Assembly: GCF_000702325.1 (NCBI RefSeq) | Contig: NZ_KL370891.1 | Span: 1,448,917-1,512,916, forward strand | Direction: 5' to 3' | DNA from: Thiomicrorhabdus sp. Milos-T2 | Lineage (GTDB): Bacteria; Pseudomonadota; Gammaproteobacteria; Thiomicrospirales; Thiomicrospiraceae | Length of the DNA stretch: 64,000 bases | Part shown: positions 830 through 60,581 of the stretch, in pieces | Layout: the number at the start of each line of letters is the position of its first letter | Position numbering within the stretch: position 1 is the first letter of the stretch | Made by a program: the position numbers and the translations under genes | Notes under the pieces: generated by a model | Databases searched by the model: none | What the model saw: the letters and a program-made list of their open reading frames with translations, nothing else | What the model was told of the DNA's origin: nothing

Positions 830-841
830 ACCAGGCCTGGT
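830..841. repeat. ACCAGGCCTGGT palindrome, intergenic copy
   Basis: Perfect copy of the window's 12-bp palindrome, with matching T/A flanks that extend it to 14 bp (829-842). It lies in the 341-bp gap between the PII terminator and the cold-shock gene, far from either stop codon. Nothing else recognisable is in the gap apart from the AT-rich leader of the cold-shock gene. Confidence 0.9.
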
Positions 842-4659: not shown

Positions 4660-5714
4660 TCTTTATCTTCCTTTTGTTTAAGGGGTAAATACACCGTAAA
4701 CACAGTATTACCTGGTTCACTCTCTGCCACGATTAAACCGTCATGTTGACGTAAGACATTTTGAGCTACCGGTAACCCTAAACCTGTTCCTGCTTTTTTA
4801 CTGGTGACCATAGGATAAAATATAGAATCAAATACCGAATCTGGAATTCCCATTCCTTCATCTTTAATACTAATTTTGGCAACCAGGGGATAAGTTTTTG
4901 CTCCAAGCGTAAATTTATGCTCTATACGGGTTTTAATCGTTAAAAACCCACCCGTCTCTTCCATTGCTTGAATACCATTTTGAATTAAATTCAGTAAAGC
5001 CTGAATCATCGCTTCAAAATCCATATAAATATCTGGAATACTCGGATCATAATCTAACTTGATATAGACATTTTCTGGCTTTTCACCTTCAACAACCTGT
5101 AATACATAACGAATTAATTCATGCACATTATGCGGCTCTTTTTCAGCCCTTTTTTCTGGCCCTAACATTCTATTTACAAGATTTTTTAAACGTGTCACTT
5201 CTTTAGAAATAATCTCCAAAAAAGCCGACTCTTTGTCATCTGTGCTAAAACGTTTTTGCAGTAACTGAGTTGCACCTAAAATTCCCGCTAAAGGGTTTTT
5301 AACTTCATGCGCTAAGGTTTTCACTAAAAGATTACCAGCTTCATATTGGTGCCAACGCTCATCCTCTTCCACAATACGGTGATGACGCTCAGTGTTGTAA
5401 ATTTCCACCAACCAACCCATATCCTCACTTAATTCATAAGGTGAAATAGAACAACTAACCCTAATCTTTTCAAAATCTTGAACAGCAACAGTATACTCAT
5501 GAATCGTGATACTCTTATCCACTGATTGGTTTAATGTATCTACCAGGCCTGGTAGTATTATTTTCCATGATTTGCCCAACATTCTTTTAGGACTTACCTG
5601 AAAAATCTCACCTGCAGCGACATTCATAAACTGTATATTTTCATTTTTATCTAACCACAAAACAGCGGTCGTCAGTCCTTCCAAAACTTCGTAATAAAAA
5701 CTTTTAGACATCAT
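4656..5714 (-). CDS. ntrB: Nitrogen regulation sensor kinase NtrB
   Basis: Two-component histidine kinase/phosphatase partner of NtrC, controlled by PII. It has an N-terminal PAS domain (about 5-110), a HisKA domain with the phosphorylated His136 in LAHEVKNPLAG, and an ATPase domain with N box LNLIQNGIQAM and G boxes DEGMGIP and GTGLGLP. There is no membrane segment, as expected for this cytosolic kinase. It starts 5 bp after the metalloregulator gene. An ACCAGGCCTGGT palindrome is built into the coding sequence, read as ...LPGLVD... at residues 54-59 of the PAS domain. Confidence 0.95.
   Translation of the reverse strand: MMSKSFYYEVLEGLTTAVLWLDKNENIQFMNVAAGEIFQVSPKRMLGKSWKIILPGLVDTLNQSVDKSITIHEYTVAVQDFEKIRVSCSISPYELSEDMGWLVEIYNTERHHRIVEEDERWHQYEAGNLLVKTLAHEVKNPLAGILGATQLLQKRFSTDDKESAFLEIISKEVTRLKNLVNRMLGPEKRAEKEPHNVHELIRYVLQVVEGEKPENVYIKLDYDPSIPDIYMDFEAMIQALLNLIQNGIQAMEETGGFLTIKTRIEHKFTLGAKTYPLVAKISIKDEGMGIPDSVFDSIFYPMVTSKKAGTGLGLPVAQNVLRQHDGLIVAESEPGNTVFTVYLPLKQKEDKE
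5542..5553. repeat. ACCAGGCCTGGT palindrome inside ntrB
   Basis: Perfect copy within coding sequence, extended to 14 bp by T/A flanks. It is read in the frame that gives Pro-Gly-Leu. Confidence 0.9.
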
Positions 5715-7842: not shown

Positions 7843-7886
7843 ACCAGGCCTGGCTATATTAGTTAAAGATTAGATAGAGGCCTGGT
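7843..7886. repeat. Two degenerate copies of the ACCAGGCCTGGT palindrome
   Basis: At 7843-7854 the copy differs from the palindrome only at its last base; at 7878-7886 only AGGCCTGGT remains. The two lie 35 bp apart after the stop of the reductase-like gene. Confidence 0.7.
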
Positions 7887-7910
7887 ACTTTCTCTGATAA
7901 CCCCATTCAC

Positions 7911-7973
7911 TTTATGCTTTATGCTTTATGCTTTATGCTTTATGCTTTATGCTTTATGCTTTATGCTTTATGC
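7911..7973. repeat. Nine tandem copies of the 7-bp unit TTTATGC
   Basis: Uninterrupted perfect repeats totalling 63 bp, between the reductase-like gene and the tRNA terminator. A 7-bp unit in DNA without coding potential is the classic form of a slippage-prone locus, so copy number probably varies between strains. Confidence 0.95.
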
Positions 7974-7995
7974 TTAAACATAAATAATAGGCAAT

Positions 7996-12684: not shown

Positions 12685-12696
12685 ACCAGGCCTGGT
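12685..12696. repeat. ACCAGGCCTGGT palindrome between tolA and tolB
   Basis: Perfect copy with T/A flanks (14 bp), 26 bp past the tolA stop codon. It could form a hairpin in the tol mRNA. Confidence 0.9.
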
Positions 12697-17340: not shown

Positions 17341-17352
17341 ACCAGGCCTGGT
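17341..17352. repeat. ACCAGGCCTGGT palindrome between nadA and ruvC
   Basis: Perfect copy, in the leader region of ruvC and just past the nadA terminator. Confidence 0.9.
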
Positions 17353-18571: not shown

Positions 18572-20356
18572 TTAACTTGCTTCACCACGTACAGGTTTTC
18601 TGAAGCGTAATGCTAAATCTTCCAATTGAGCATTATCTACCAGGCCTGGTGCTTCAGTTAATAAGCAAGCAGCAGATTGTGTTTTAGGGAATGCGATAAC
18701 ATCACGAATGGAATCAATATTACCTAAAATCATGACTAAACGATCTAAACCAAATGCCATACCCGCATGAGGAGGACAACCGTATTTAAGCGCGTTTAAT
18801 AAGAAACCAAATTTCTCTTGTGCTTCTTCATCCGAAATACCCAATAATTTAAATACCGCTGCTTGCATATTTGTATCGTGAATACGAACTGAACCGCCAC
18901 CCACTTCTAAACCATTAATAACAAGGTCATAAGCTTTAGACAACATTTGCTCTGGAGCGTCATGATTTAATATTTCTTCAGTTGTCGCTTTAGGCTGTGT
19001 GAATGGGTGGTGAATCGCAGTCATTCGAGCTGCCTCTTCATCTTCTTCAAACATTGGGAAGTCTACAACCCATACCGGCTTAAATTTACCATTAAGCATA
19101 CCTAAGTCTTCACCAATTTTAACGCGTAAAGCCCCTAAAGCATCGTTCACAATACGGGCTTTATCTGCACCAAAGAACACAATATCGCCGTCTTGAGCAT
19201 GAACACGCTTCATAATTTCCATGACTTGATCAGGGAAGAACTTAACAATTGGAGATTGTAGACCTTCAATGCCTGCAGAAAGATCGTTAACCTTAATATA
19301 AGCTAAACCTTTTGCTCCATAGATGCTTACAAACTTAGTATAGGCATCAATATCTTTACGGCTCATTGAACCCGCACCAGGTACTTTTAGCGCTGCAACT
19401 CGACCTTTTGGATCTTTAGCAGGTGCTGCAAAAACCTTAAACTCAATATCTTGCAATAAATCAGCGACATCAACCAACTGCATATCAATACGCAAATCTG
19501 GACAATCAATACCATACTTTTCAATCGCTTCTGAATAAGGCATACGAGGGAAGTCGCCATCAAATTCATGACCAATCGTTTCTTTAAAAATGGTTTTAGT
19601 CAGACCTTCCATAACATTCATAACCGCTGCTTCTTCCATAAAAGAAGTCTCAATATCTAACTGCGTAAACTCTGGTTGACGGTCAGCACGTAAATCTTCA
19701 TCGCGGAAACAACGGGTAATTTGATAATAACGATCAAAACCAGACATCATTAATAACTGTTTAAACAACTGTGGAGACTGCGGTAACGCAAAGAATTTAT
19801 TTTGATGAGTACGACTTGGCACTAAATAATCACGAGCACCTTCAGGTGTTGATTTGGTTAAGATAGGCGTTTCAATATCCATAAAGTGGTTATCGTCTAG
19901 GTAACGTCGCATAGAACGTGTCACTTTATATCTCAGCATTAGAGTTTCTTGCATCTCGTCACGACGTAAATCAATGTAACGGTATTTAAGGCGTGTTTCT
20001 TCACCTACATTCTTATCATCTAACTGAAAAGGAATAGGTTCAGCCATACTTAATACATTAAGTTCTGAAGCCACAACTTCAATTTTACCCGTAGCCATAT
20101 TTGGGTTAATCGTACCTTCCGTTCTTGGAATAACCTTACCGGTAATTTGTAAAACGCACTCTGCACGAAGACGTTCTGCTTTGGCAAATATTTCTGCGGT
20201 ATCTGGGTTTACAACCACTTGCACCAAACCTTCACGGTCACGCAAATCGATAAAGATAACCCCACCATGGTCACGGCGACGATGCACCCAACCTGCTACG
20301 GTTACGGTTTGGTCAATGAATGATTCTGTAACTTGCCCACAATACTGCGTACGCAT
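18572..20356 (-). CDS. aspS: Aspartyl-tRNA synthetase
   Basis: Class II synthetase. It has an N-terminal OB fold for anticodon binding (about 1-105), the catalytic domain with motif 2 [20 protein letters not shown] and motif 3 [14 protein letters not shown], and the bacterial GAD insert (about 285-420). 594 residues is typical. Near the C terminus the coding sequence contains a perfect ACCAGGCCTGGT read as EAPGLVDN. Confidence 0.96.
18639..18650. repeat. ACCAGGCCTGGT palindrome inside aspS
   Basis: Perfect copy, coding for Pro-Gly-Leu about 20 residues before the end of the protein. Confidence 0.9.
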
Positions 20357-21595: not shown

Positions 21596-22381
21596 ATGAC
21601 AGAGCTTTCCTCGACACAACTTCTAATATTTAGCGGGATTTTAGGCTTAGTAATAGGTAGCTTTTTATCGATGCTAACCTGGCGACTACCACGCATTATG
21701 ATGCTTGAGGAAGAAGCCCAATTTAAAGAGATCAGTTTAGGCGGTTCAAAATGCCCTAAATGTCATGCCAACCTACCTTGGTATAGACTTATTCCACTTT
21801 TTAGCTGGCTATCCACAAAAGGAAAATGTCACAATTGTCAGGCAAAAATTTCACCACGCTACCCCATAATCGAAACGTCAACGGCTTTACTTACGATTGC
21901 CTGTATGTGGCAATTTGGACTCACACCTGAAGGGATTGCCGCTACTTTATTTAGTTGGATATTAATTGCTATTTTTGTGATTGATTTTGAACATCAACTC
22001 ATTTTAGACAATTTAAGTCTGCCACTGCTTTGGCTAGGACTACTCTTTAATACACAAACCTTATTTGCATCACCCGTTGATGCGATTTGGGGAGCCGCAA
22101 TTGGCTATTTACTGCTTTGGATTGTTTTTCATGCCTTTAAAATGTTAACGGGTAAAGAAGGTATGGGCTATGGTGATTTTAAGCTTTTAGCGGCTTTAGG
22201 TGCTTGGTTTGGCTTCATTGCTTTGCCACAAATTATATTAATAGCAGCCGTAACCAGCATTTTAATTGGCATTATAGGAATGATTTTAAAAACGCGTGGG
22301 CGAGATACCCCTATGGCATTTGGTCCATTTCTAGCCATTGCTGGCTGGGCAACTTTATTCTTAGGTCCTAATATATTTTAA
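21596..22381 (+). CDS. pilD: Prepilin peptidase / N-methyltransferase PilD
   Basis: Inner-membrane aspartic protease that cleaves and methylates type IV pilins and type II secretion pseudopilins. The N-terminal zinc motif has two CxxC pairs (CPKCHANLP and CHNCQ). The two catalytic Asp are in VIDFEHQLILD and GMGYGDFKLL. About seven membrane helices. No pilB or pilC is adjacent, so its partner genes lie elsewhere. A GGGTAT-type element begins 13 bp after its stop. Confidence 0.95.
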   Translation: MTELSSTQLLIFSGILGLVIGSFLSMLTWRLPRIMMLEEEAQFKEISLGGSKCPKCHANLPWYRLIPLFSWLSTKGKCHNCQAKISPRYPIIETSTALLTIACMWQFGLTPEGIAATLFSWILIAIFVIDFEHQLILDNLSLPLLWLGLLFNTQTLFASPVDAIWGAAIGYLLLWIVFHAFKMLTGKEGMGYGDFKLLAALGAWFGFIALPQIILIAAVTSILIGIIGMILKTRGRDTPMAFGPFLAIAGWATLFLGPNIF

Positions 22382-23331: not shown

Positions 23332-23343
23332 ACCAGGCCTGGT
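23332..23343. repeat. ACCAGGCCTGGT palindrome upstream of the DAHP synthase gene
   Basis: Perfect copy in the 327-bp gap between the divergent DUF3579 gene and aroG. The rest of this gap is AT-rich, with a short inverted repeat (AAAAAGAG / CTCTTTTT) at about 23279-23304 and no gene. Confidence 0.9.
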
Positions 23344-24698: not shown

Positions 24699-25685
24699 TT
24701 AAAAGTGTAAATAACCTTTTAACCCTTTTTGTGAAAACTCTTCACCATTATGTATTAAAACAAGGTTTTCACTTTTTAGCACTCGACCTATTTCCGTCAC
24801 TGCAACGCCTACTTTTTTAGCTTTTTCCTGCACCTCTACTAAATTAGCTTCTTTTATAGTAAAGCAAATCTGATAATCATCTCCCCCCGCTAAAATTGCT
24901 GACCAATCCTGAGAAGTTTCAATATAATTTTTGGCCGGTTCAGAAAGTGGAATTTTCTGTAATTCAATCTCCGCATTTAACCCGCACGTTGAATGCTCAA
25001 AAATATGCCCTATGTCGGCCAATAAACCATCAGAAATATCAATCGCACTCGTTGCGTAATCACATAAAACCGAACTCAATTCAAGCTGAGGTGTAGGTCT
25101 ATTTAAAGCCTGTAATAAAAAATCTATTTCACTATCATTTAAATCATTTTTAACCAGGCCTGGTAGATTATCTTGCGCCACCTTTAACCCTAATGCACCA
25201 TCTCCAATAGTATTGGTTACACAAATTAAGTCACCTAATTGAGCGCCGGAACGCAATACCGCCTTACCTTGTTCTACCCATCCTTGCGCAGTTACCGTAA
25301 TGGTTAAATGACCTTTTGTGGTATCTCCACCAATCAGCGGAATAGTATAACGTTCACTTATTGCTTTTAAGCCTTTTGAAAATGACTTTAACCAGGCCTG
25401 GTCATTATTAGGTAAAGTCAACGCTAAAGAGAAAAATCCAGGTTTCGCCCCCATTGCTGCTAAATCACTTAAGTTAACAGCCACCGCTTTCCAAGCAATA
25501 TCAAACCCACTGGTCTCTTCAGGAAAATGCACTCCACTAACTAAAGTATCGGTTACGACAACAAGTTGATGATTTGGTGGTACATTCATAACCGCACCAT
25601 CATCACCAATCCCTAATTCATCTAAAGCCAACCCTTTGGATAAAGGTTGAAAACATTCTTTTATTAACTCGAATTCTGATGCCAT
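24699..25685 (-). CDS. thiL: Thiamine-monophosphate kinase ThiL
   Basis: Phosphorylates thiamine monophosphate to the active diphosphate. Motifs: GIGDDGAVM (metal/ATP), VVTDTLVSGVHF, DLAAMGAKP, GGDTTKG and DISDGLLADIGHI. I take the ATG at 25685 (MASEFELIKE). An earlier in-frame ATG at 25757 would place 24 residues inside a repeat element, with sequence unlike the family. No good ribosome site is seen before 25685. Two palindromes occur in the gene, one read as LPGLVK and the other as DQAWLK. Confidence 0.93.
   Translation of the reverse strand: MASEFELIKECFQPLSKGLALDELGIGDDGAVMNVPPNHQLVVVTDTLVSGVHFPEETSGFDIAWKAVAVNLSDLAAMGAKPGFFSLALTLPNNDQAWLKSFSKGLKAISERYTIPLIGGDTTKGHLTITVTAQGWVEQGKAVLRSGAQLGDLICVTNTIGDGALGLKVAQDNLPGLVKNDLNDSEIDFLLQALNRPTPQLELSSVLCDYATSAIDISDGLLADIGHIFEHSTCGLNAEIELQKIPLSEPAKNYIETSQDWSAILAGGDDYQICFTIKEANLVEVQEKAKKVGVAVTEIGRVLKSENLVLIHNGEEFSQKGLKGYLHF
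25153..25164. repeat. ACCAGGCCTGGT palindrome inside thiL (first)
   Basis: Perfect copy read as Pro-Gly-Leu. Confidence 0.9.
25391..25402. repeat. ACCAGGCCTGGT palindrome inside thiL (second)
   Basis: Perfect copy read as Gln-Ala-Trp, a different frame from the copy 238 bp away in the same gene. Confidence 0.9.
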
Positions 25686-30405: not shown

Positions 30406-30870
30406 TTATTTGGCTGTAGTGACTTTTACCAAACGCTCTATCTCTTCTCTAAAAGCATTCACATCTTGAAAAGAACGGTACACAGAAGCAAAACGAACAT
30501 AGGCAACCTGGTCTAGCTCACGAAGAGAGTCCATTACCCATTCACCCAATTGCGAAGAAGGAATTTCCCTCACTCCTTCAGACATTAAACGTTTTGTTAT
30601 TTGGCTTGCCACATGATCAATAGCATCACTAGAAACAGGACGTTTTTCAAGGGCTTTTATCAACCCCGCACGAACTTTAGACTCATCAAATTTCTCACGA
30701 TTCCCATCGCTTTTAACCACTCGAGGCAAAGACAATTCAGCAGATTCATAGGTGGTAAAGCGCTCTCCGCAGTGAATACATTCTCTACGACGGCGAACTT
30801 GAACACCCTCTGTTGCCAGACGTGAATCAATGACCTTTGTATCCGCTGCATTACAAAAAGGACAGTGCAT
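30406..30870 (-). CDS. nrdR: Transcriptional repressor NrdR
   Basis: ATP/dATP-sensing repressor of ribonucleotide reductase genes. It has an N-terminal zinc ribbon (CPFC ... CIHCGERF) and an ATP-cone domain ([21 protein letters not shown]). I start it at the ATG at 30870, with an AGGAG site before it. A longer frame back to 30945 would run through the upstream terminator hairpin and add 25 residues foreign to the family. It heads the rib genes, as in many gammaproteobacteria. Confidence 0.95.
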
Positions 30871-30911: not shown

Positions 30912-30939
30912 AAAAAACCACCAGGCCTGGTGGTTTTTT
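30912..30939 (-). terminator. Terminator-like 28-bp palindrome carrying ACCAGGCCTGGT
   Basis: A perfect 28-bp palindrome: six A, then CC, the 12-bp palindrome (30920-30931), GG and six T. The T run follows the hairpin on both strands. It sits between glyA and nrdR and so probably ends glyA transcription. This is the clearest case of the repeat serving as a terminator stem. Confidence 0.8.
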
Positions 30940-31003
30940 AGTCATTGTTTAGTCATAAACAAGCTAAACTCGGTTTGATTATCCAAACCGAAGTTAGCAT
31001 TCT

Positions 31004-32275
31004 TTACTTATAAACAGGTTTAGCTTCGCATAAAGCAGAAACTTTAGAACGTACTTCAGCAATAACGGCTTCATCCCAAGTTTCTTTTTCTTGGTCACAT
31101 GCATCAATAACATCACACATCCAGGTTGCTAAGTTAGTGCAATCTTCTTCATTAAAATCACGAGTAGTCGCTGCTGCTGTCCCTACACGAATACCTGAAG
31201 TAACGAATGGTGACATTGGATCATTAGGTACTGAGTTTTTATTAACAGTAATGTGAGCTTCATCTAATGCTTTATCAACCAATTTACCGGTTAACCCTTT
31301 TTCAATCAGGCTGACTAAGAACAGGTGGTTTTCTGTACCACCAGAAATAACATCACAACCACGCGACATAAATACTTTAGCCATCGCTTGGGCATTTTTT
31401 ACTACGTTTTCACAATAGCTATTCCAAGATGGTTCTAGACACTCTTTAAAGGCAACCGCTTTAGCTGCCATTACATGAACTAAAGGCCCGCCTTGACTAC
31501 CAGGGAAAATAGCTGAATTGAACTTTTTCTCTAAATCAGGATTTGATTTACAAATAATTAAACCACCCCGAGGTCCACGTAAAGTTTTGTGCGTAGTGGT
31601 CGTACAAACGTCTGCAAATGGAACTGGGCTTGGGTAGACACCACCAGCAACTAAACCAGCAACATGAGCCATATCTACTAACAAGTAAGCCCCAACTGAG
31701 TCTGCAATTTCACGGAACTTTGCCCAATCAACTACTTGAGAATAGGCCGAGAAACCAGCAATAATCATTTTCGGCTTATGCTCATTGGCTAATGCTTGAA
31801 CCTCATCATAATCAATCTTGCCTGAAACGGGATCAATACCGTATTGAACAGCTTTGTATAATTTACCTGAAAAACTCACATGAGAACCGTGAGTTAAGTG
31901 TCCACCATGAGCAAGGCTCATACCTAAAACCGTATCACCCGCTTCTAGAAGCGCTAAATAAACGGCCGCATTTGCCTGAGAACCAGAGTGAGGTTGAACG
32001 TTTGCATAGTCAGCACCAAATAATTCTTTAGCGCGATCAATTGCCGCTTGCTCAGCCACATCTGCATATTCACAACCACCATAGTAGCGCTTACCAGGAT
32101 AACCTTCAGCGTACTTGTTTGTGAAATAGGAACCTTGAGCTTCCATAACACGTGGGCTAGTGTAGTTTTCAGATGCAATTAACTCAATATGAGATTCTTG
32201 GCGTTTTTCTTCATTTTTAATTGCATCCGCAATTAAATCGTCATAGCCAGCGATGGTCATTGATTTTGTGAACAT
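31004..32275 (-). CDS. glyA: Serine hydroxymethyltransferase GlyA
   Basis: PLP enzyme that interconverts serine and glycine and feeds one-carbon units to folate. The PLP-lysine motif [13 protein letters not shown] is present, as are [20 protein letters not shown] and [10 protein letters not shown] use the ATG at 32275 ([12 protein letters not shown]), which has a GGAGA site about 9 bp before it, rather than the upstream in-frame ATG at 32296. 423 residues. Confidence 0.95.
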
Positions 32276-35680: not shown

Positions 35681-35728
35681 TTAAATATAAACACCACTTC
35701 CTTAATTTTAAGGAAGTGAAAAGAAACA

Positions 35729-35740
35729 ACCAGGCCTGGT
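35729..35740. repeat. ACCAGGCCTGGT palindrome after the DsrE-like gene
   Basis: Perfect copy, extended to a 16-bp palindrome (35727-35742) and followed by ATTTTGATT, so it may act as a terminator. Another perfect hairpin (CACTTCCTTAA / TTAAGGAAGTG, 35695-35718) lies just before it. Confidence 0.9.
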
Positions 35741-35926
35741 TGATTTTGATTAACTGATTATTTAGTAGCCGTCAAATAGTAGCCCTCAAAATTAAAAAAG
35801 GCTAATTCAAAATACTTACTACATACTTGAGTTCAGCATAAATTTCACTGTTACCGGTTTCTTTCAGATTACTCCCCCACTATAATAAATAGACAATTTA
35901 CTAAAAAATGTACCCTTTAATAAAAC

Positions 35927-36458: not shown

Positions 36459-36470
36459 ACCAGGCCTGGT
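36459..36470. repeat. ACCAGGCCTGGT palindrome between two converging genes
   Basis: Perfect copy with T/A flanks (14 bp), 62 bp after the unassigned secreted-protein gene. Confidence 0.9.
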
Positions 36471-49393: not shown

Positions 49394-50635
49394 TTAATGG
49401 ATAGATTCACTCTTAGCCAATTTAGGTAAGGCTTCACGTCCATTTAATGCTTGCCCCATCAACCAATTTTTTACCAGAGTCAGTTTATTAGCGAGAGGTA
49501 AAAGTGGTTTACGAATATAGGATTTTAATGCCATATCTTGTTTAAAAAACCAGTCAAAACCTTCCATTGAACGTTGCACTAATGCATTATCACCACGGCG
49601 CCAACGCTCATACTTTCTAAGCACTGAAAAACTTCCCCATGGTTTATTGAGTTGTTTTGCATTTAATATCGTTTCTACTAAAGCCGCCGCATCTAACAAG
49701 CCTAAATTCACGCCTTGTCCTGCTTGTGGATGTATAGTGTGTGCTGCATCACCCACTAATGCTAAATTAGGCTTTACATAATGTTCAGCATGTCTTCTTA
49801 CCAGAGGAAAAGCCCCTCTTTCAGCCACTTCAACAACCTGCCCTAAACGGTAATCAGAAGCCTTAGCAATCTCTTTAGAAAATTCATCATCAGGCAAGTC
49901 TAAAGCCCATTGCATTTTATCGGAAGGTAAATACCACGCAATAGAGCTAACATTATTACCCATTGATAAATAAGCAAACGGCCCATTACTGGTGTAACGT
50001 TGCCAACAGGTGTCCTCATGAGGTAATTCAGTTTTAACGCAACCAACAACGGCACACTGTTCATAATCATGAGTATCTAAACCAATATTGGCCATTTGTC
50101 GTACTTTAGAGAAAGCACCATCGGCTCCCACCAGCAATTCCGTCTTAAATATTCCAATATTATCTACAGACAACCAGGCCTGGTTGTTTTTAAAGACAAG
50201 ATTATCAATATTTACATCAATAAGCGTGGTGATATTTTCACAAGCAAGCACTTGCTCCCAGAGAGAAGCTTGAATAACATTATTCTCAACGATATAACCT
50301 AAATTATCTTCATGCATATCTTGAGCAGAAAAATGAACTTCTCCAGGTGTTACTTCATCCCAAACATGCATTGCTGTAAAAGGGTGAAAACGTCTGTTTT
50401 CAATACCTTGCCATGCCTTTAAGTTTTTAATAATTTTCTCAGAAGCTCGGCTTAGTGCGCTTACTCTGACTTGGTAAGCCGAGTTTTCTTGCCAATCTAA
50501 ATCAACAGGTTGCTTTTCTAAAAGTAGAACTTTCATCCCCTGCTGACCTAAGCCCAAAGCCGTTGCAGAACCAACCATGCCGCCACCAACAACAATTACA
50601 TCCCAAACATCATTCGTTAAATTAGAATTACTCAT
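49394..50635 (-). CDS. ubiI: FAD-dependent ubiquinone-biosynthesis hydroxylase (UbiI/UbiF type)
   Basis: Aromatic-ring hydroxylase of ubiquinone synthesis. FAD motifs: VIVVGGGMVGSATAL near the N terminus and NLALVGDAAHTIHPQAGQGVNLGL. The phrases YQVRVSALSRASEKIIKNL and GYIVENNVIQ are typical of UbiI/UbiF; which ring position is hydroxylated cannot be decided, so the symbol is a best guess. Its start overlaps the ubiH stop (ATGA). It carries a palindrome read as NQAWLS. Confidence 0.85.
   Translation of the reverse strand: MSNSNLTNDVWDVIVVGGGMVGSATALGLGQQGMKVLLLEKQPVDLDWQENSAYQVRVSALSRASEKIIKNLKAWQGIENRRFHPFTAMHVWDEVTPGEVHFSAQDMHEDNLGYIVENNVIQASLWEQVLACENITTLIDVNIDNLVFKNNQAWLSVDNIGIFKTELLVGADGAFSKVRQMANIGLDTHDYEQCAVVGCVKTELPHEDTCWQRYTSNGPFAYLSMGNNVSSIAWYLPSDKMQWALDLPDDEFSKEIAKASDYRLGQVVEVAERGAFPLVRRHAEHYVKPNLALVGDAAHTIHPQAGQGVNLGLLDAAALVETILNAKQLNKPWGSFSVLRKYERWRRGDNALVQRSMEGFDWFFKQDMALKSYIRKPLLPLANKLTLVKNWLMGQALNGREALPKLAKSESIH
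50173..50184. repeat. ACCAGGCCTGGT palindrome inside ubiI
   Basis: Perfect copy, extended to a 16-bp palindrome, read as Gln-Ala-Trp. Confidence 0.9.
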
Positions 50636-51864
50636 GCACGATTGCCTCGCATTGCAAATTTTGAAAATCGACGTTTAACACCTGGCATGGCTTGCATCGC
50701 CATTAAACCAAGACCTCGTAAATGACCTATCATTGGAGATGAGTGCTGAAAAATTTGAATCAAACTATCGGTTAAACCCATAACTTTTTGATGATCTGGT
50801 TTTCGTTTGTTAGCATAATTATTTAACCAGGCCTGGTCACCTAAATCATCGGTTGAATCAACACTATTTAAAAATTCTTCGATATCTCGTATACCTAAGT
50901 TTAATCCTTGCGCAGCCACAGGGTGTTGGGTATGCGAAGCATTACCCATTAGAACAGCTCGTCCTTTGGTCATTTGAGGAACATACGTCTCTTTTAACGG
51001 ATAAACAATTCTTGGACTGACTTTAGTAAAACGCCCTAAACGTTCCCCCATCTTTTCCGCAAATAAATTAATGTAATCCGCATCATTTAAGGCCTTAATT
51101 GCCTCAACCTCTTCTTTAGAGCAAACCATCACGGCTTTATGAAAGTGGTCATGCATGGGCAATAATGCGACAGGACCGTCTTGAGTAAAACGCTCATAAG
51201 CCCATCCTTGGGGATGTTGTTCTGTTTCTATTTGAGCCAATACACCAAAAGCATCATAAGAATTTTCTTCAATCGGTAACTGCAATATTTCACGCACTTT
51301 AGACTGTGTGCCATCTGCACCAACCACTAATTGCGCTTTTATGGTTTGTATCTGTTTTAAACCATCCGAGTCTAATGAAACTTTGACTTCCACCCCAGAC
51401 TCATTTTCCGTAAAGCTTTCTAGACTACCTGGGCATAATAAAGTCATGTTTTCTGATTCAGAGGCAATAGACCACAAAACCCGTCCTAAATCATTAGATT
51501 GAACACTAAAACCAAGCGCATCAACATCAACTTCTGTAGCGTGTAAGGTCGTAATGCCTAAATAGCCCTTTTGTGAAACATGAATATGCTCTATTGCTGT
51601 GGTATGGGGTTTTAGCTTTGACCAAACGCCTATTTTTTCTAATAAAACTTGAGAGCCTTTTGATAAGGCTAAAACCCGACCATCAAATGAATTCTTTACC
51701 TCATCGGGATTATCTGAGCTAGGTGCAAAACGTTCTGCGATAACAACCTTTTTGCCTAAACCAGATAGCCCAATTGCTAACATTAAACCAACCGGTCCTC
51801 CTCCAGCAATAAAGACATCACAACTCAGTTCATCAGAATTTAACGTTAAATCAGAATTAACCAT
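50632..51864 (-). CDS. ubiH: 2-octaprenyl-6-methoxyphenol hydroxylase UbiH
   Basis: FAD-dependent hydroxylase of ubiquinone synthesis. FAD motifs: VFIAGGGPVGLMLAIGL, then VVGADGTQSKVRE and RAVLMGNASHTQHPVAAQGLNLG. It is placed between pepP and ubiI, the classic gammaproteobacterial order. 410 residues. A palindrome is read as DQAWLN close to its C-terminal helices. The 74-bp gap to pepP holds no clear terminator, so one operon is likely. Confidence 0.92.
   Translation of the reverse strand: MVNSDLTLNSDELSCDVFIAGGGPVGLMLAIGLSGLGKKVVIAERFAPSSDNPDEVKNSFDGRVLALSKGSQVLLEKIGVWSKLKPHTTAIEHIHVSQKGYLGITTLHATEVDVDALGFSVQSNDLGRVLWSIASESENMTLLCPGSLESFTENESGVEVKVSLDSDGLKQIQTIKAQLVVGADGTQSKVREILQLPIEENSYDAFGVLAQIETEQHPQGWAYERFTQDGPVALLPMHDHFHKAVMVCSKEEVEAIKALNDADYINLFAEKMGERLGRFTKVSPRIVYPLKETYVPQMTKGRAVLMGNASHTQHPVAAQGLNLGIRDIEEFLNSVDSTDDLGDQAWLNNYANKRKPDHQKVMGLTDSLIQIFQHSSPMIGHLRGLGLMAMQAMPGVKRRFSKFAMRGNRA
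50826..50837. repeat. ACCAGGCCTGGT palindrome inside ubiH
   Basis: Perfect copy read as Gln-Ala-Trp. Confidence 0.9.
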
Positions 51865-51938: not shown

Positions 51939-53246
51939 TTAATTTTTAGCCATCCAAGCTTCAATCTCAGCGACCGTTCTTGGTAAACCTTTAGTTAACA
52001 CTTCGTGACCTTTTGGAGTGACTAAGACATCATCTTCAATCCTAATTCCAATATTATGCCACTTAGCATCAACATCAGAATGCTCACTAGAAATATATAA
52101 ACCCGGTTCTACAGTCAAGACCATTCCGGCTTTAAGTTCACGCCATTCACCCTGCTTTTTATAATCGCCCACATCATGCACATCCATACCTAACCAGTGA
52201 CCCGTACCATGCATAAAAAAGGGTTTATAAGCTTCTCGCTTTATTAAGTCGTTCAGGCTACCTTTTAATATTCCCAACTCTACTAAACCTGCCGTTAAGA
52301 CTTTTAATGTAGTTTGATGCACTTCATCATAAGTCACGCCAGGCTTAATAATTTGTATAGCCGATTGCTGAGCCTTTAATACTAAACTATATAAATTTGC
52401 TTGAGCTTCACAAAACTGTCCACTAGCAGGGAACGTTGTCGTAATATCACCAGCATAACCGTCAATTTCGGCTCCTGCATCAACCAACACCAATGCATTT
52501 TTATCAATTTTGCTACGGTTCTCTGTGTAGTGCAAAATACAAGCGTTATCTGCTGATGCCACTATTGAAGTAAATGCAACTCGTGGTGAACCTTGCTGCA
52601 TAAACTCAGATTCCAATGCAGCCTGCACTTGATATTCATATTTGCTAGATTTAACCGCTTTCATTGCCGCTAAATGACCTTTTACAGAAGCCTGTGCTGC
52701 TTGGCGCATACGATTTACTTCTTCAGATGATTTAAACACTCTCATCTCATGCAAGATTTTATCTAAATCACAAATATTGGAAGGTGCAGCAATACCTTTA
52801 CGTACTTTCTGTTTTAGCTGAGCAATCCAAGCATTAATAGATTCACTCCATTGAGTTAATTGAGAAAAACTTACAAAGATTGAATCCATATTCTCCAATA
52901 AAACTAACGCTTGCTCATCTAACTCGTCAATTGACCAGGCCTGGTCAATTTGCAAAGCTTTACACGCACTATCTACACCTAATCGTCTACCCTGCCAAGT
53001 TTCTTGTTCAGGATCTTTTGGACGTAAAAAGAGAACCGCTTGATTATCATCCGACCGTTTGATTAAAAACAAAACCGAATCGGGTTCAGTAAAACCCGTT
53101 AAATAGAAAAAATCACTTTCTGCACGAAATTCGAACTCCACATCTCGATTACGAATTTGTTCCTCTCCAGAAGCGACGACAGCGACGCTATTCTCTGGCA
53201 TTTGGCTTAAAAGTTTATCTCGGTTTTTAGAATAGAAAGAATCCAT
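51939..53246 (-). CDS. pepP: Xaa-Pro aminopeptidase PepP
   Basis: Removes N-terminal residues next to proline. The N-terminal creatinase-like domain (about 1-160) is followed by a pita-bread catalytic domain with metal ligands in VDAGAEIDGYAGDITTTFP, HGTGHWLGMDVHD, LTVEPGLYI and GIRIEDDVL. 435 residues. A palindrome in its N-terminal domain is extended to 22 bp (52929-52950) and read as DQAWSID. Confidence 0.95.
   Translation of the reverse strand: MDSFYSKNRDKLLSQMPENSVAVVASGEEQIRNRDVEFEFRAESDFFYLTGFTEPDSVLFLIKRSDDNQAVLFLRPKDPEQETWQGRRLGVDSACKALQIDQAWSIDELDEQALVLLENMDSIFVSFSQLTQWSESINAWIAQLKQKVRKGIAAPSNICDLDKILHEMRVFKSSEEVNRMRQAAQASVKGHLAAMKAVKSSKYEYQVQAALESEFMQQGSPRVAFTSIVASADNACILHYTENRSKIDKNALVLVDAGAEIDGYAGDITTTFPASGQFCEAQANLYSLVLKAQQSAIQIIKPGVTYDEVHQTTLKVLTAGLVELGILKGSLNDLIKREAYKPFFMHGTGHWLGMDVHDVGDYKKQGEWRELKAGMVLTVEPGLYISSEHSDVDAKWHNIGIRIEDDVLVTPKGHEVLTKGLPRTVAEIEAWMAKN
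52934..52945. repeat. ACCAGGCCTGGT palindrome inside pepP, extended to 22 bp
   Basis: Perfect copy with five further matching bases on each arm (52929-52950), the longest symmetric copy seen within a gene. Confidence 0.9.
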
Positions 53247-57989: not shown

Positions 57990-59258
57990 ATGAATTCAGT
58001 ATCTCACCCTTCTCATTCAATCCCTTCTTCAGCAACGTCAAAAACGGTGGCCGATTTAGCGACTCTAATTAAAATCTGGGGTAAAGAACTCGGGTTTGCC
58101 GACATTGGTATTTCAGATACAGATTTATCAGACTATGAAGCGCGCTATTTTAACTGGATAGGTGAAAATTTTCATGGCGAAATGGAGTATATGAAGCGCC
58201 ATGGCACTAAACGCACTCGACCCAATGAACTAGAACCCGGTACAGTAAGTGTAATTAGTGTACGTTTAAACTATTTTGACAATGATGCTGAACTGGCAAC
58301 CAAACAGCTCCATAATCCAGAAAAAGCTTATGTTTCACGTTATGCGTTGGGCAAAGACTATCACAAACTCATTCGTAAACGCTTGCAAGCACTGGCAAAT
58401 AAAATCAATGAACATTGTGATAATTTTCAATACCGTGCCTTTACGGATAGCGCCCCGGTACTTGAACGCCCTCTTGCTGAAAAAGCGGGTTTAGGCTTTA
58501 TTGGCAAAAATAGTTTAATAATTCACCCCCGTGCAGGTTCCTGGTTTTTTTTAGGTGAGATTTACACCAACCTTAATTTACCTGCCGACCCACCTTTTGA
58601 AAAACAAGGCTGTGGCCCTTGCACAGCGTGTATTGATGAGTGCCCAACCCAAGCGATTGTTGGCAACGCCATAGTCGATTCTCGTCGTTGTATTTCTTAT
58701 TTAACCATTGAATTTCAAGGTTCTATTGCCAAAGAACTTAGACCTTTAATTGGCAATCGTATTTATGGCTGTGACGACTGTCAACTCGTTTGTCCTTGGA
58801 ATAAATTTACCCAACCAACGGCTGAAACGGCCTTTAAAGATCAACAAAATTTAGATTCTGCTAGTTTGCTGGAGCTTTGGAGCTGGACAGAAGAGCAATT
58901 CTTAAAAAAACTAGAGGGCTCTACTATTCGTAGAATCGGTTACATTCAATGGAATCGTAATTTAGCCATCGCCATAGGCAATGCAAGAGCAAACACTCAT
59001 TTGCTGAATCAAATGATTGAACAACTACAAAACAAAATGGGCACGCTAAATGACTTGGTAGACGAGCATATAGAGTGGGCAATTAATCAACTATCACAAA
59101 GAATTCATTCACAAAATACTGAAGTTACCAGGCCTGGTAGTTCTGAAATATCAAACATTAACCTTACTCAAGGGATTAAAGACAATCAAACGATTAAACC
59201 GTTTATTGTTAAGAAGTATTACCTTCCAAAAAAACAAACATTAAACGATAAAGATTAA
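57990..59258 (+). CDS. queG: Epoxyqueuosine reductase QueG
   Basis: Cobalamin- and iron-sulfur-dependent last step of queuosine synthesis. Cluster cysteines are in GCGPCTACIDECPTQAI and GCDDCQLVCPWN; the catalytic Asp region is FTDSAPVLERPLAEKAGLGFIGKN. At 422 residues it has a Ser-rich N-terminal extension and a C-terminal tail (after about 365) beyond the family's usual end. The tail carries a palindrome read as VTRPGS. It diverges from tsaE and converges on dgt, with the IS110 element between. Confidence 0.93.
   Translation: MNSVSHPSHSIPSSATSKTVADLATLIKIWGKELGFADIGISDTDLSDYEARYFNWIGENFHGEMEYMKRHGTKRTRPNELEPGTVSVISVRLNYFDNDAELATKQLHNPEKAYVSRYALGKDYHKLIRKRLQALANKINEHCDNFQYRAFTDSAPVLERPLAEKAGLGFIGKNSLIIHPRAGSWFFLGEIYTNLNLPADPPFEKQGCGPCTACIDECPTQAIVGNAIVDSRRCISYLTIEFQGSIAKELRPLIGNRIYGCDDCQLVCPWNKFTQPTAETAFKDQQNLDSASLLELWSWTEEQFLKKLEGSTIRRIGYIQWNRNLAIAIGNARANTHLLNQMIEQLQNKMGTLNDLVDEHIEWAINQLSQRIHSQNTEVTRPGSSEISNINLTQGIKDNQTIKPFIVKKYYLPKKQTLNDKD
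59127..59138. repeat. ACCAGGCCTGGT palindrome inside queG
   Basis: Perfect copy with T/A flanks, read in the third possible frame as Thr-Arg-Pro-Gly, in the C-terminal tail. Confidence 0.9.
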
Positions 59259-59312
59259 CTAATTCAGAATTGGCAATATAGAGTTACCAGATACCGTGTT
59301 TGATTTTCATAG

Positions 59313-60263
59313 TCAAGCACCAATCTTATATTCTGGATCAAAGGGTTTACCACTCTTCAGAATAGCATAAACCAGATGAATTAATTTGCGCATTACCGCG
59401 GCAACTATCTTCTTACCTGCAACCCCTCTTTTTCTCAGATTGTCTGCAAAGGATTTTAAGACAGGGTTGTATGCAATACTATTTACCGCAGGCATGTAGA
59501 GACACTTCCTTAAATTCGCATTGCCCATTTTGGAAAGCGATGAGCGATTTAAACTACTACCCGATTGCTGTATTTGTGGAACAAGACCAGAGTAACAGGC
59601 TAAGGCCTTTGCATTATCAAAACGATAAATGTCTTTGATATGAGTGATGAGTTCAATCGCTGTTTTTTCACCCAGTCCTTTAATGGACTTTAATAATGCC
59701 ATCTGCTTAGCCAATTCAACATCCTGTTGAACGCAGCCTTTCATTTGGGATTGAATCTTTTCAATCTGCTTTTCTAACTGTTTAATCTGAGCTATTTGAA
59801 TTTTCTGTACTTCAATTTCTGTCGAACTTTGCATTTGGTTTTTAATGCGGGTTTTTGTTTGAATTAACAAGGATTGAAGTGCTGAGAACTCTTGTAGCTT
59901 AGCGATAATCGGACTGTCAGGCTGCCAAGGTTTGAGTTTGTGTACTTCACAAAAATCTGCGATGAGCTTAGCATCTTCACTGTCGGTTTTAACACGCTTT
60001 AGTTTGGATTGTGCATGATGTTTGATTTTAAATGGGTTGATCACATACACAGGGTATTCTTGTTCGTAAAGATGCAATGCGAGGCCTAAATAGTATTTCC
60101 CGGTGGCTTCCATCGCGATGTGTGGAGAATCAAAAAGGCTCATCCATTTGATAAACTTTTTAAACCCCGCTGGGGTGTTATTAAAAGTGACACTTTGCTT
60201 TTGAGTTGAAACCGCTACGTCAAAGGTGTCTTTGCTGATGTCTATGCCGATGTATATTTTCAT
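59313..60263 (-). CDS. IS110-family transposase (RNA-guided recombinase)
   Basis: The RuvC-like N-terminal domain (about 1-145) has the DEDD residues Asp8 (IGIDISKD), Glu52 (AMEATGKY), Asp94 and Asp97 (VKTDSEDAK). A coiled coil (about 145-180) and a helix-hairpin-helix (LKSIKGLGEKTAIEL) follow. The C-terminal Tnp domain holds the conserved serine region QSGSSLNRSSLSKMGNANLR (233-252), where the catalytic Ser of IS110 recombinases lies. 316 residues, apparently intact. Known IS110 enzymes use a bridge RNA to choose donor and target. Confidence 0.95.
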   Translation of the reverse strand: MKIYIGIDISKDTFDVAVSTQKQSVTFNNTPAGFKKFIKWMSLFDSPHIAMEATGKYYLGLALHLYEQEYPVYVINPFKIKHHAQSKLKRVKTDSEDAKLIADFCEVHKLKPWQPDSPIIAKLQEFSALQSLLIQTKTRIKNQMQSSTEIEVQKIQIAQIKQLEKQIEKIQSQMKGCVQQDVELAKQMALLKSIKGLGEKTAIELITHIKDIYRFDNAKALACYSGLVPQIQQSGSSLNRSSLSKMGNANLRKCLYMPAVNSIAYNPVLKSFADNLRKRGVAGKKIVAAVMRKLIHLVYAILKSGKPFDPEYKIGA

Positions 60264-60304
60264 GTTCGAAATACCTATTTTATGCTAGGATTTAATTTCG
60301 TTTA

Positions 60305-60510
60305 GTAAGTTCACACTATGGCTATACTAACCTTATGAATACAGGCTAGGAGTCTTGTCCTGCCTAAGATACCGTTCAGTTTATAGTGTGTGGGGATAAA
60401 GGTCTTAATCTGATAACCTGGATCACTCTGGGTGTCATTGGCCTGGTAGCAAGATCTCTTTATCCCTTTACTAAGCGTCCTTAATAAATTCTCCACTTCT
60501 GGAGAACACT
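60305..60510 (-). ncRNA. Predicted bridge RNA of the IS110 element
   Basis: Read on the minus strand from 5' to 3': a small hairpin TTCTCC / GGAGAA (60489-60506); a target loop closed by GGGATAAAG / CTTTATCCC (60393-60466); a donor loop closed by CACACTAT / ATAGTGTG (60312-60390). The target loop holds UACCAGGCC (60440-60448) and GUUAUCAG (60410-60417). These complement the two sides of the target, the second with one G-U pair. The donor loop holds ACGGUAUCUUA (60365-60375), identical to the joined element ends. Ends approximate; folded by hand. Confidence 0.8.
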
Positions 60511-60581
60511 TTCAACATATAAGGCCTGGTAACTCTATGAAAGAATATTGAACGAGGTGATATCCCCCAGCTAATACCCCC

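Follow-up and report, generated by a model that had tools for sequence, protein, structure and literature searches.

Our data suggest, with a probability of roughly 0.6, that the 12-bp palindromic word ACCAGGCCTGGT of Thiomicrorhabdus sp. Milos-T2 belongs to the uptake-sequence class of highly iterated, species-specific signals, and that some of its copies double as transcription terminators. The suggestion is drawn from sequence and from analogy with known systems. The stretch analysed here, 64,000 nt of contig NZ_KL370891.1 (the window), holds 15 copies of the word. The 2.66-Mb genome holds 498, and no match to the reversed-pattern control. In the gap separating glyA from nrdR, one copy forms the centre of a perfect palindrome of 28 bp, which an earlier note on this DNA had taken for a textbook bidirectional terminator.

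In a 786-kb sample of the genome, consisting of the window and 37 further stretches with genes called by a simple coding model, 151 copies of ACCAGGCCTGGT were found against 0.012 expected by base composition, and 81 words with one mismatch against 0.53. In 63 of these 81 the change falls on one of the two outermost positions of a half-site, which leaves CAGGCCTG as the strict part of the word. Perfect self-palindromes of at least 28 bp number 12 in the sample, 11 of them centred on ACCAGGCCTGGT; three simulated order-2 sequences of similar length contain none. Among 365 genomes of the class outside the order, no genome has more than five copies of ACCAGGCCTGGT. Within the genome the word is widely spread (0-8 copies per 20-kb stretch), and the 443-kb second contig is about threefold sparser in it (4 copies in the 60 kb sampled; one-sided Poisson p 0.007). 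Among the titles listed in literature searches on the 12-mer, Thiomicrospira, Thiomicrorhabdus and Hydrogenovibrio, with most subscription journals outside their coverage, none announces this repeat.

The word also has preferred surroundings. In the 149 sampled copies with enough flank for placement analysis, the symmetrised flanks favour AANYT before the core and ARNTT after it; one more AT-rich patch lies at 15-17 bp from the core centre. At least three T among the four bases 9-12 from the centre are found on 107 of 298 sides. Counted per copy, such T tracts lie on both sides of 19 copies, on one side of 69 and on neither side of 61, where 19.2 and 68.6 are expected for both and one. The two sides are thus independent, and what looks like a symmetrical extended motif is a preference of each side, with no joint requirement.

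Relatives have the same word or a dialect of it. Sixty genomes of the order were compared: 31 have 236-1133 copies of CAGGCCTG each, and the other 29 have 0-74. Some of the rich genomes prefer other outer letters: G018 has 900 copies of CAGGCCTG but 16 of ACCAGGCCTGGT. Four of the 29 poor genomes are rich in another word: ACCGGCCGGT is present 1025 times in G026 and 0-15 times in the other genomes, and a non-palindromic word, CCCARCCTGGYAGATT, 284 times in G028, 283 times in G031 and 337 times in G034, with 0-1 copies elsewhere. These last three genomes share the right half of the palindrome, which reads CCTGGTARNTT in Milos-T2 and CCTGGYAGATTT in the three; in their sampled stretches, CCTGGYAGA runs straight into TTT in 17 of 22 matches. 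The 30 copies of CCCARCCTGGYAGATT in 240 kb of these genomes include two inverted pairs (4 copies), neither of them in G034. The pair in G028 lies 3 bp behind a gene and would fold with -36.0 kcal/mol ahead of a T tract; the pair in G031 lies between convergent genes, with -32.1 kcal/mol and no T tract. In the remaining 25 genomes of the 60 we identified no such word; seven of them (G043, G035, G009, G002, G047, G017 and G001) were sampled, and their stretches yielded no motif as clear as the known dialects. Frequent words in G009, and in part of G028 and G031, resemble local repeat families. The family in G009 comprises 9-mers such as CCGCCAAGG and GCTGCCGCC, with about 100 copies in 60 kb, at least partly intergenic.

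The copies are conserved beyond their surroundings. Of 147 Milos-T2 copies with full flanks, those that align across the core in stretches of five motif-bearing relatives provided 48 orthologous sites. An unaltered core is found at 36 of them; sequence identity 8-30 bp out would predict 0.95. By species, identity is 0.81-0.99 in the core and 0.61-0.69 in the flanks. Retention of the core while the flanks diverge argues that it is kept by selection or by molecular drive. Most aligned copies show substitutions and no gaps in the core, so that copies seem to arise and vanish by substitution. In G043, none of eight aligned orthologous sites is intact, which suggests that the signal was lost or switched there; no sites aligned in G026 and G035.

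Copies favour the DNA between genes. Coding sequence makes up 84% of the sample, yet only 73 of the 149 copies are genic and 76 are intergenic (binomial p 7e-23). Per kb there are 1.24 copies in convergent gaps, 0.57 in co-oriented gaps, 0.37 in divergent gaps and 0.11 in genes, and genic copies are spread unevenly over the three reading frames (39, 25 and 6). The palindromic arms are longer at gene 3' ends. Arms of at least 10 (palindromes of at least 20 bp) belong to 18 of 67 copies in convergent or co-oriented gaps, to 2 of 73 genic copies and to none of the 9 in divergent gaps (Fisher p 5e-5 for the first two classes), a result in favour of the earlier note, which had proposed to compare arm lengths. 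These placements bear on an unlikely alternative, in which the word is the binding site of a chromosome-organising or regulatory dimer such as a nucleoid protein or a partition or occlusion factor. A dimer would be in keeping with the palindromic core, with flank preferences that are alike on its two sides and with the wide chromosomal spread of the copies, but not with enrichment at gene 3' ends instead of promoters or with the non-palindromic dialect of three relatives in the same family.

A terminator was predicted within 130 bp of 108 of 674 gene 3' ends, compared with 1 after shuffling. At 15 of these ends the predicted hairpin includes the word. The number of different copies involved is 13, since each of two convergent sites serves a pair of genes; one of these 13 copies pairs with an imperfect copy next to it. 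Ends with a copy of the word within 130 bp have a predicted terminator more often than ends without one (24 of 76 versus 84 of 598; Fisher p 0.0003). On these predictions, the terminator role of the word is real as a tendency. With 13 of 149 copies (about 9%) in a predicted terminator, it is a secondary role. The earlier claim that the palindrome doubles as a terminator is therefore supported for the glyA copy, which folds as a terminator would, and as a trend in arm length and terminator frequency at gene 3' ends, but not for the repeat at large, about half of whose sampled copies are genic. Some 3'-end copies, the glyA copy among them, lie inside a predicted hairpin with a T tract or have been extended into one. 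The same note had described a 16-bp palindrome followed by T-rich DNA after the DsrE-like gene, and both are there.

At the glyA site itself, the letters AAAAAACCACCAGGCCTGGTGGTTTTTT are their own reverse complement and have the A6 and T6 ends that were attributed to them. The palindrome begins 64 nt after the glyA stop and ends 41 nt before the nrdR start. Both genes are on the minus strand, which corrects any picture of genes converging on the palindrome, and as they are co-oriented the palindrome would serve glyA. Of the textbook bidirectional terminator, then, the sequence and the terminator-like fold hold good; bidirectionality fits the letters but is not needed. The glyA-strand RNA of the palindrome has a predicted folding energy of -21.2 kcal/mol (z -4.43), and none of 200 shuffles is as stable. 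The 16 pairs of the predicted fold extend through the A and T tails, and after the fold comes UUUUUAAA. As in intrinsic terminators, a stable, GC-bearing stem with a tetraloop stands directly before a T tract close to a gene 3' end, where the hairpin is conserved in most relatives compared; what sets this site apart is that its upper stem and loop are a genome-wide repeat. In glyA transcripts this hairpin would form, with release of RNA polymerase at the U run.

Some observations speak against termination here. A generic terminator scan, which found 3 sites in the region against 1.8 expected, called the palindrome on the plus strand only. The omission of the glyA strand is explained by the continuation of the stem through the A/T tails, and a purpose-made scan did call the palindrome on that strand. 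Another terminator-like hairpin lies upstream of the palindrome, closer to the glyA stop. Moreover, with the nrdR start so near, termination would require some read-through or a squeezed-in promoter for nrdR.

Relatives tell the stem and the word apart. A match to NrdR is found in 56 of the 60 genomes of the order, and the glyA-nrdR gap was compared in 30 of these 56, those whose loci the search listed. A CCACC..GGTGG hairpin with T4 is present in 26 of these loci, 13 of 15 from CAGGCCTG-rich genomes and 13 of 15 from CAGGCCTG-poor ones. Within the 280 bp preceding nrdR, 12 of the 15 rich genomes have CAGGCCTG itself and none of the 15 poor ones does (Fisher p 1e-5, uncorrected for kinship). 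In 10 of the 12 the word is inside the CCACC/GGTGG hairpin; in G010 and G019 it belongs to another palindrome, which lacks the CCACC stem and the T tract. Among the rich genomes that lack the exact word in the gap, G054 and G038 are one base off and G053 has another loop. The hairpins of poor genomes read, for example, CCACCATATCTGGTGG or CCACCAAATCTGGTGG, or have a longer inner stem, and in G026 that genome's own word, ACCGGCCGGT, is located between the terminator and nrdR. Since the stem is kept in rich and poor genomes and the word is confined to the rich ones, the terminator is probably older, and the word was probably fitted into an existing stem later. The old stem with its A/T tails would already have offered ACCA and TGGT, and would then have received the word. 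Whatever the function of the word, this would be a terminator reused to house a genome-wide word, with the apparent older terminator still visible in relatives.

The comparison also defines the reach of a plainer account, which takes the 28-bp palindrome for an ordinary intrinsic terminator behind glyA, with a match to the repeat that needs no uptake-like function. For the glyA site alone, and within that reach, this account is correct: the fold is strong, and stem and T tail persist irrespective of the word. It leaves unexplained why CAGGCCTG is in the gap of most rich genomes and of no poor one, and why the word is repeated hundreds of times, about half of the sampled copies being genic. As an explanation of the repeat we therefore regard it as improbable too.

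We favour the uptake-sequence reading because the word combines the traits that characterise the DNA uptake sequences (DUS) of the Neisseriaceae and the uptake signal sequences (USS) of the Pasteurellaceae: abundance, dialects, conservation, a taste for intergenic DNA, hairpins at gene ends, and T tracts roughly a helical turn from the centre. Here and below, known systems are cited from the available parts of the papers named. DUS likewise come in hundreds of copies (about 1900 in 2.2-2.3 Mb in Neisseria), with one dialect per species (PMC3630211), and are highly conserved within more divergent flanks (PMC2397512). They often form inverted pairs in terminators (PMC2397512), and Simonsiella and Kingella have overlapping DUS with dyad symmetry (PMC3630211). 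The earlier note had pointed to Neisseria and Haemophilus as a parallel, with the reservation that the hairpins there are made by inverted pairs, not by self-palindromes. The parallel gains from the species dialects, and from the non-palindromic dialect with its two hairpin-forming inverted pairs, but the contrast is not absolute, given the dyad-symmetric DUS (PMC3630211). DUS do differ from the word in their letters, which are unrelated except for CTG, in their higher density and in that a single self-palindromic copy forms the hairpin here; for the word, moreover, an uptake role is a proposal. The extended USS, AAAGTGCGGTCAATTTT, has a T run downstream of its core, at a distance of about one helical turn (PMC12616744), and CCTGGCAGATTTT compares with it; unlike the core found here, the USS is not palindromic (PMC12616744).

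Found in this lineage, then, are a large excess of one word, related dialects, conservation beyond the flanks and an encoded competence channel. ComEC is present in 55 of 60 genomes, including that of Milos-T2, and the window has a type IV prepilin peptidase gene (21596-22381), which together make uptake machinery plausible. The word would mark self-DNA for uptake in transformation. A receptor would read a CCTGG-type half-site together with its T tract, and in Milos-T2 could bind from either side.

Several results weigh against this reading. ComEC does not discriminate, since 21 of the 25 genomes with no identified motif have it too. The family of one receptor candidate, PF12019 (GspH-type pilin), was not found in the Milos-T2 genome and is present in only 3 of 60 genomes; ComP-type pilins were not searched. 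The density of the word, 0.19 per kb, is lower than that of Neisseria DUS. Genic copies show no bias toward gene ends (uniform, 70 copies, Kolmogorov-Smirnov p 0.70), unlike those of the Pasteurellaceae, although such a bias is described for the USS of that family only (PMC2346458) and is not defining for all uptake sequences. Nor do genic copies prefer native-looking genes by codon score (p 0.60). A one-sided form considered for G018, CAGGCCTGCTCANTTTT, failed: only 5 of 23 copies have CTCA and then a T-rich run on that side, and the two sides are again independent (both sides 4, one 11, none 8; expected 3.9 for both and 11.2 for one). G043, the nearest relative by NrdR (95%), has a single copy of the word, and no other dialect was found in 160 kb of its DNA. 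Finally, the 48 aligned sites come mostly from the neighbourhood of the window, where many of the relatives' stretches were chosen.

Highly iterated palindromes typical of one lineage are also known from cyanobacteria (PMC4390886), where it has been proposed that one of them, HIP1, is maintained by a DNA methyltransferase together with mismatch repair. The Milos-T2 word is palindromic, has hundreds of copies and contains GGCC and CCWGG, all of which would agree with such an origin. Its copies, however, are rarer in genes than between them, and 22 of the 31 CAGGCCTG-rich genomes have no C5 methyltransferase above the Pfam cut-off, this being the only class searched. Matches above the cut-off were obtained in 9 of 31 rich and 12 of 29 poor genomes; the Milos-T2 genome has one match, below it. 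A C5 methyltransferase is thus unlikely to be the cause of the repeat, and a HIP1-like origin as a whole is very unlikely.

One copy of the palindrome in the window is split by an IS110 element of 1.2 kb, whose transposase is encoded at 59313-60263. When the flanks are joined, they give a 28-bp perfect palindrome between convergent genes, as had been stated. The element has seven full-length copies in the genome and two more that are partial or rearranged, so that both ends can be read at nine sites. Each of these has CAG, element, GGCCTGGT (eight with ACCAG and one with AACAG), so the element lands in the palindrome. In E. coli, IS621 likewise has an abundant repeat as its target: it inserts into repetitive extragenic palindromic (REP) elements at ATCAGGCCTAC, which has CAGGCCT in common with our word (PMC11208160). 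Here the repeat is unlike a REP element, and the comparison covers the target letters. That the word is itself a REP-like mobile repeat or the footprint of an insertion element merits hardly any credence: there are intergenic palindromes and an element within motif copies, but the element splits the motif and does not create it, most aligned orthologous sites are gapless through the core, and 73 of 149 copies are genic where REP elements would be extragenic. In the non-coding part upstream of the IS110 recombinase, GGCCTGGTAGC (60440-60450) resembles the right half of the element's own target, and may be part of the target guide of a bridge RNA, a candidate suggested by its letters.

It is close to an even call, and we lean slightly to the doubtful side, whether the Thiomicrospiraceae, chemolithoautotrophs outside the Neisseriaceae and Pasteurellaceae, have an uptake-sequence system of their own with at least four dialects. 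In most of the motif-bearing species found here the core is a perfect palindrome; in such a system it would be readable from either side, and one copy could be self-tag, terminator hairpin and IS110 landing site at once. If so, self-specific DNA uptake would have a further origin beside the two classical families, in sulfur-oxidising autotrophs. The dialects, including close species with loss or switch, would then be fresh material for testing the long-standing questions of what makes uptake sequences evolve and of whether selection or drive is behind them.

Table 1. Copies of the word and associated features in the window.
Feature	Position	Strand	Details
Predicted terminator hairpin, 28-bp perfect palindrome	30912-30939	-	A6, stem ACCACCA/TGGTGGT, GGCC loop, T6
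12-bp core ACCAGGCCTGGT of the glyA-site palindrome	30920-30931	.	1 of 498 genomic copies, 1 of 15 in the window
glyA, serine hydroxymethyltransferase, upstream of the terminator	31004-32260	-	Pfam PF00464 (SHMT)
nrdR, next gene downstream, same direction	30406-30870	-	Pfam PF22811 and PF03477 (NrdR zinc ribbon, ATP cone)
Second terminator-like hairpin, closer to the glyA stop	30969-30992	-	Generic terminator scan
16-bp palindrome after DsrE-like gene (PF02635)	35727-35742	+	Core 35729-35740; T-rich DNA after; called as terminator
Core copy between convergent genes	36459-36470	.	
Core copy, intergenic, after P-II gene	830-841	.	Convergent
Core copy, intergenic	12685-12696	.	
Core copy, intergenic	17341-17352	.	
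Core copy, intergenic	23332-23343	.	
Core copy in histidine kinase gene	5542-5553	.	
Core copy in aminoacyl-tRNA synthetase gene	18639-18650	.	Aligned site intact in G044, G046, G040 and G029
Core copy in AIR-synthase-related gene	25153-25164	.	
Second core copy in the same AIR-synthase-related gene	25391-25402	.	
Core copy in FAD-binding protein gene	50173-50184	.	
Core copy inside a gene	50826-50837	.	
Core copy in aminopeptidase P gene	52934-52945	.	
Core copy in queG-like gene	59127-59138	.	
IS110 element inserted in a palindrome copy	59291-60522	-	Half-sites 59286-59290 and 60523-60530; one junction G unassignable

Besides the exact copies in Table 1, a pair of imperfect ones, ACCAGGCCTGGC and AGGCCTGGT, lie near each other in the window (7843-7886), shortly ahead of a short tandem repeat and three tRNA genes. 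The tandem repeat (7910-7975) lies between these copies and the tRNA genes and consists of about nine units of the 7-mer CTTTATG. Another palindromic 12-mer, ATAGCTAGCTAT, occurs five times in the window.
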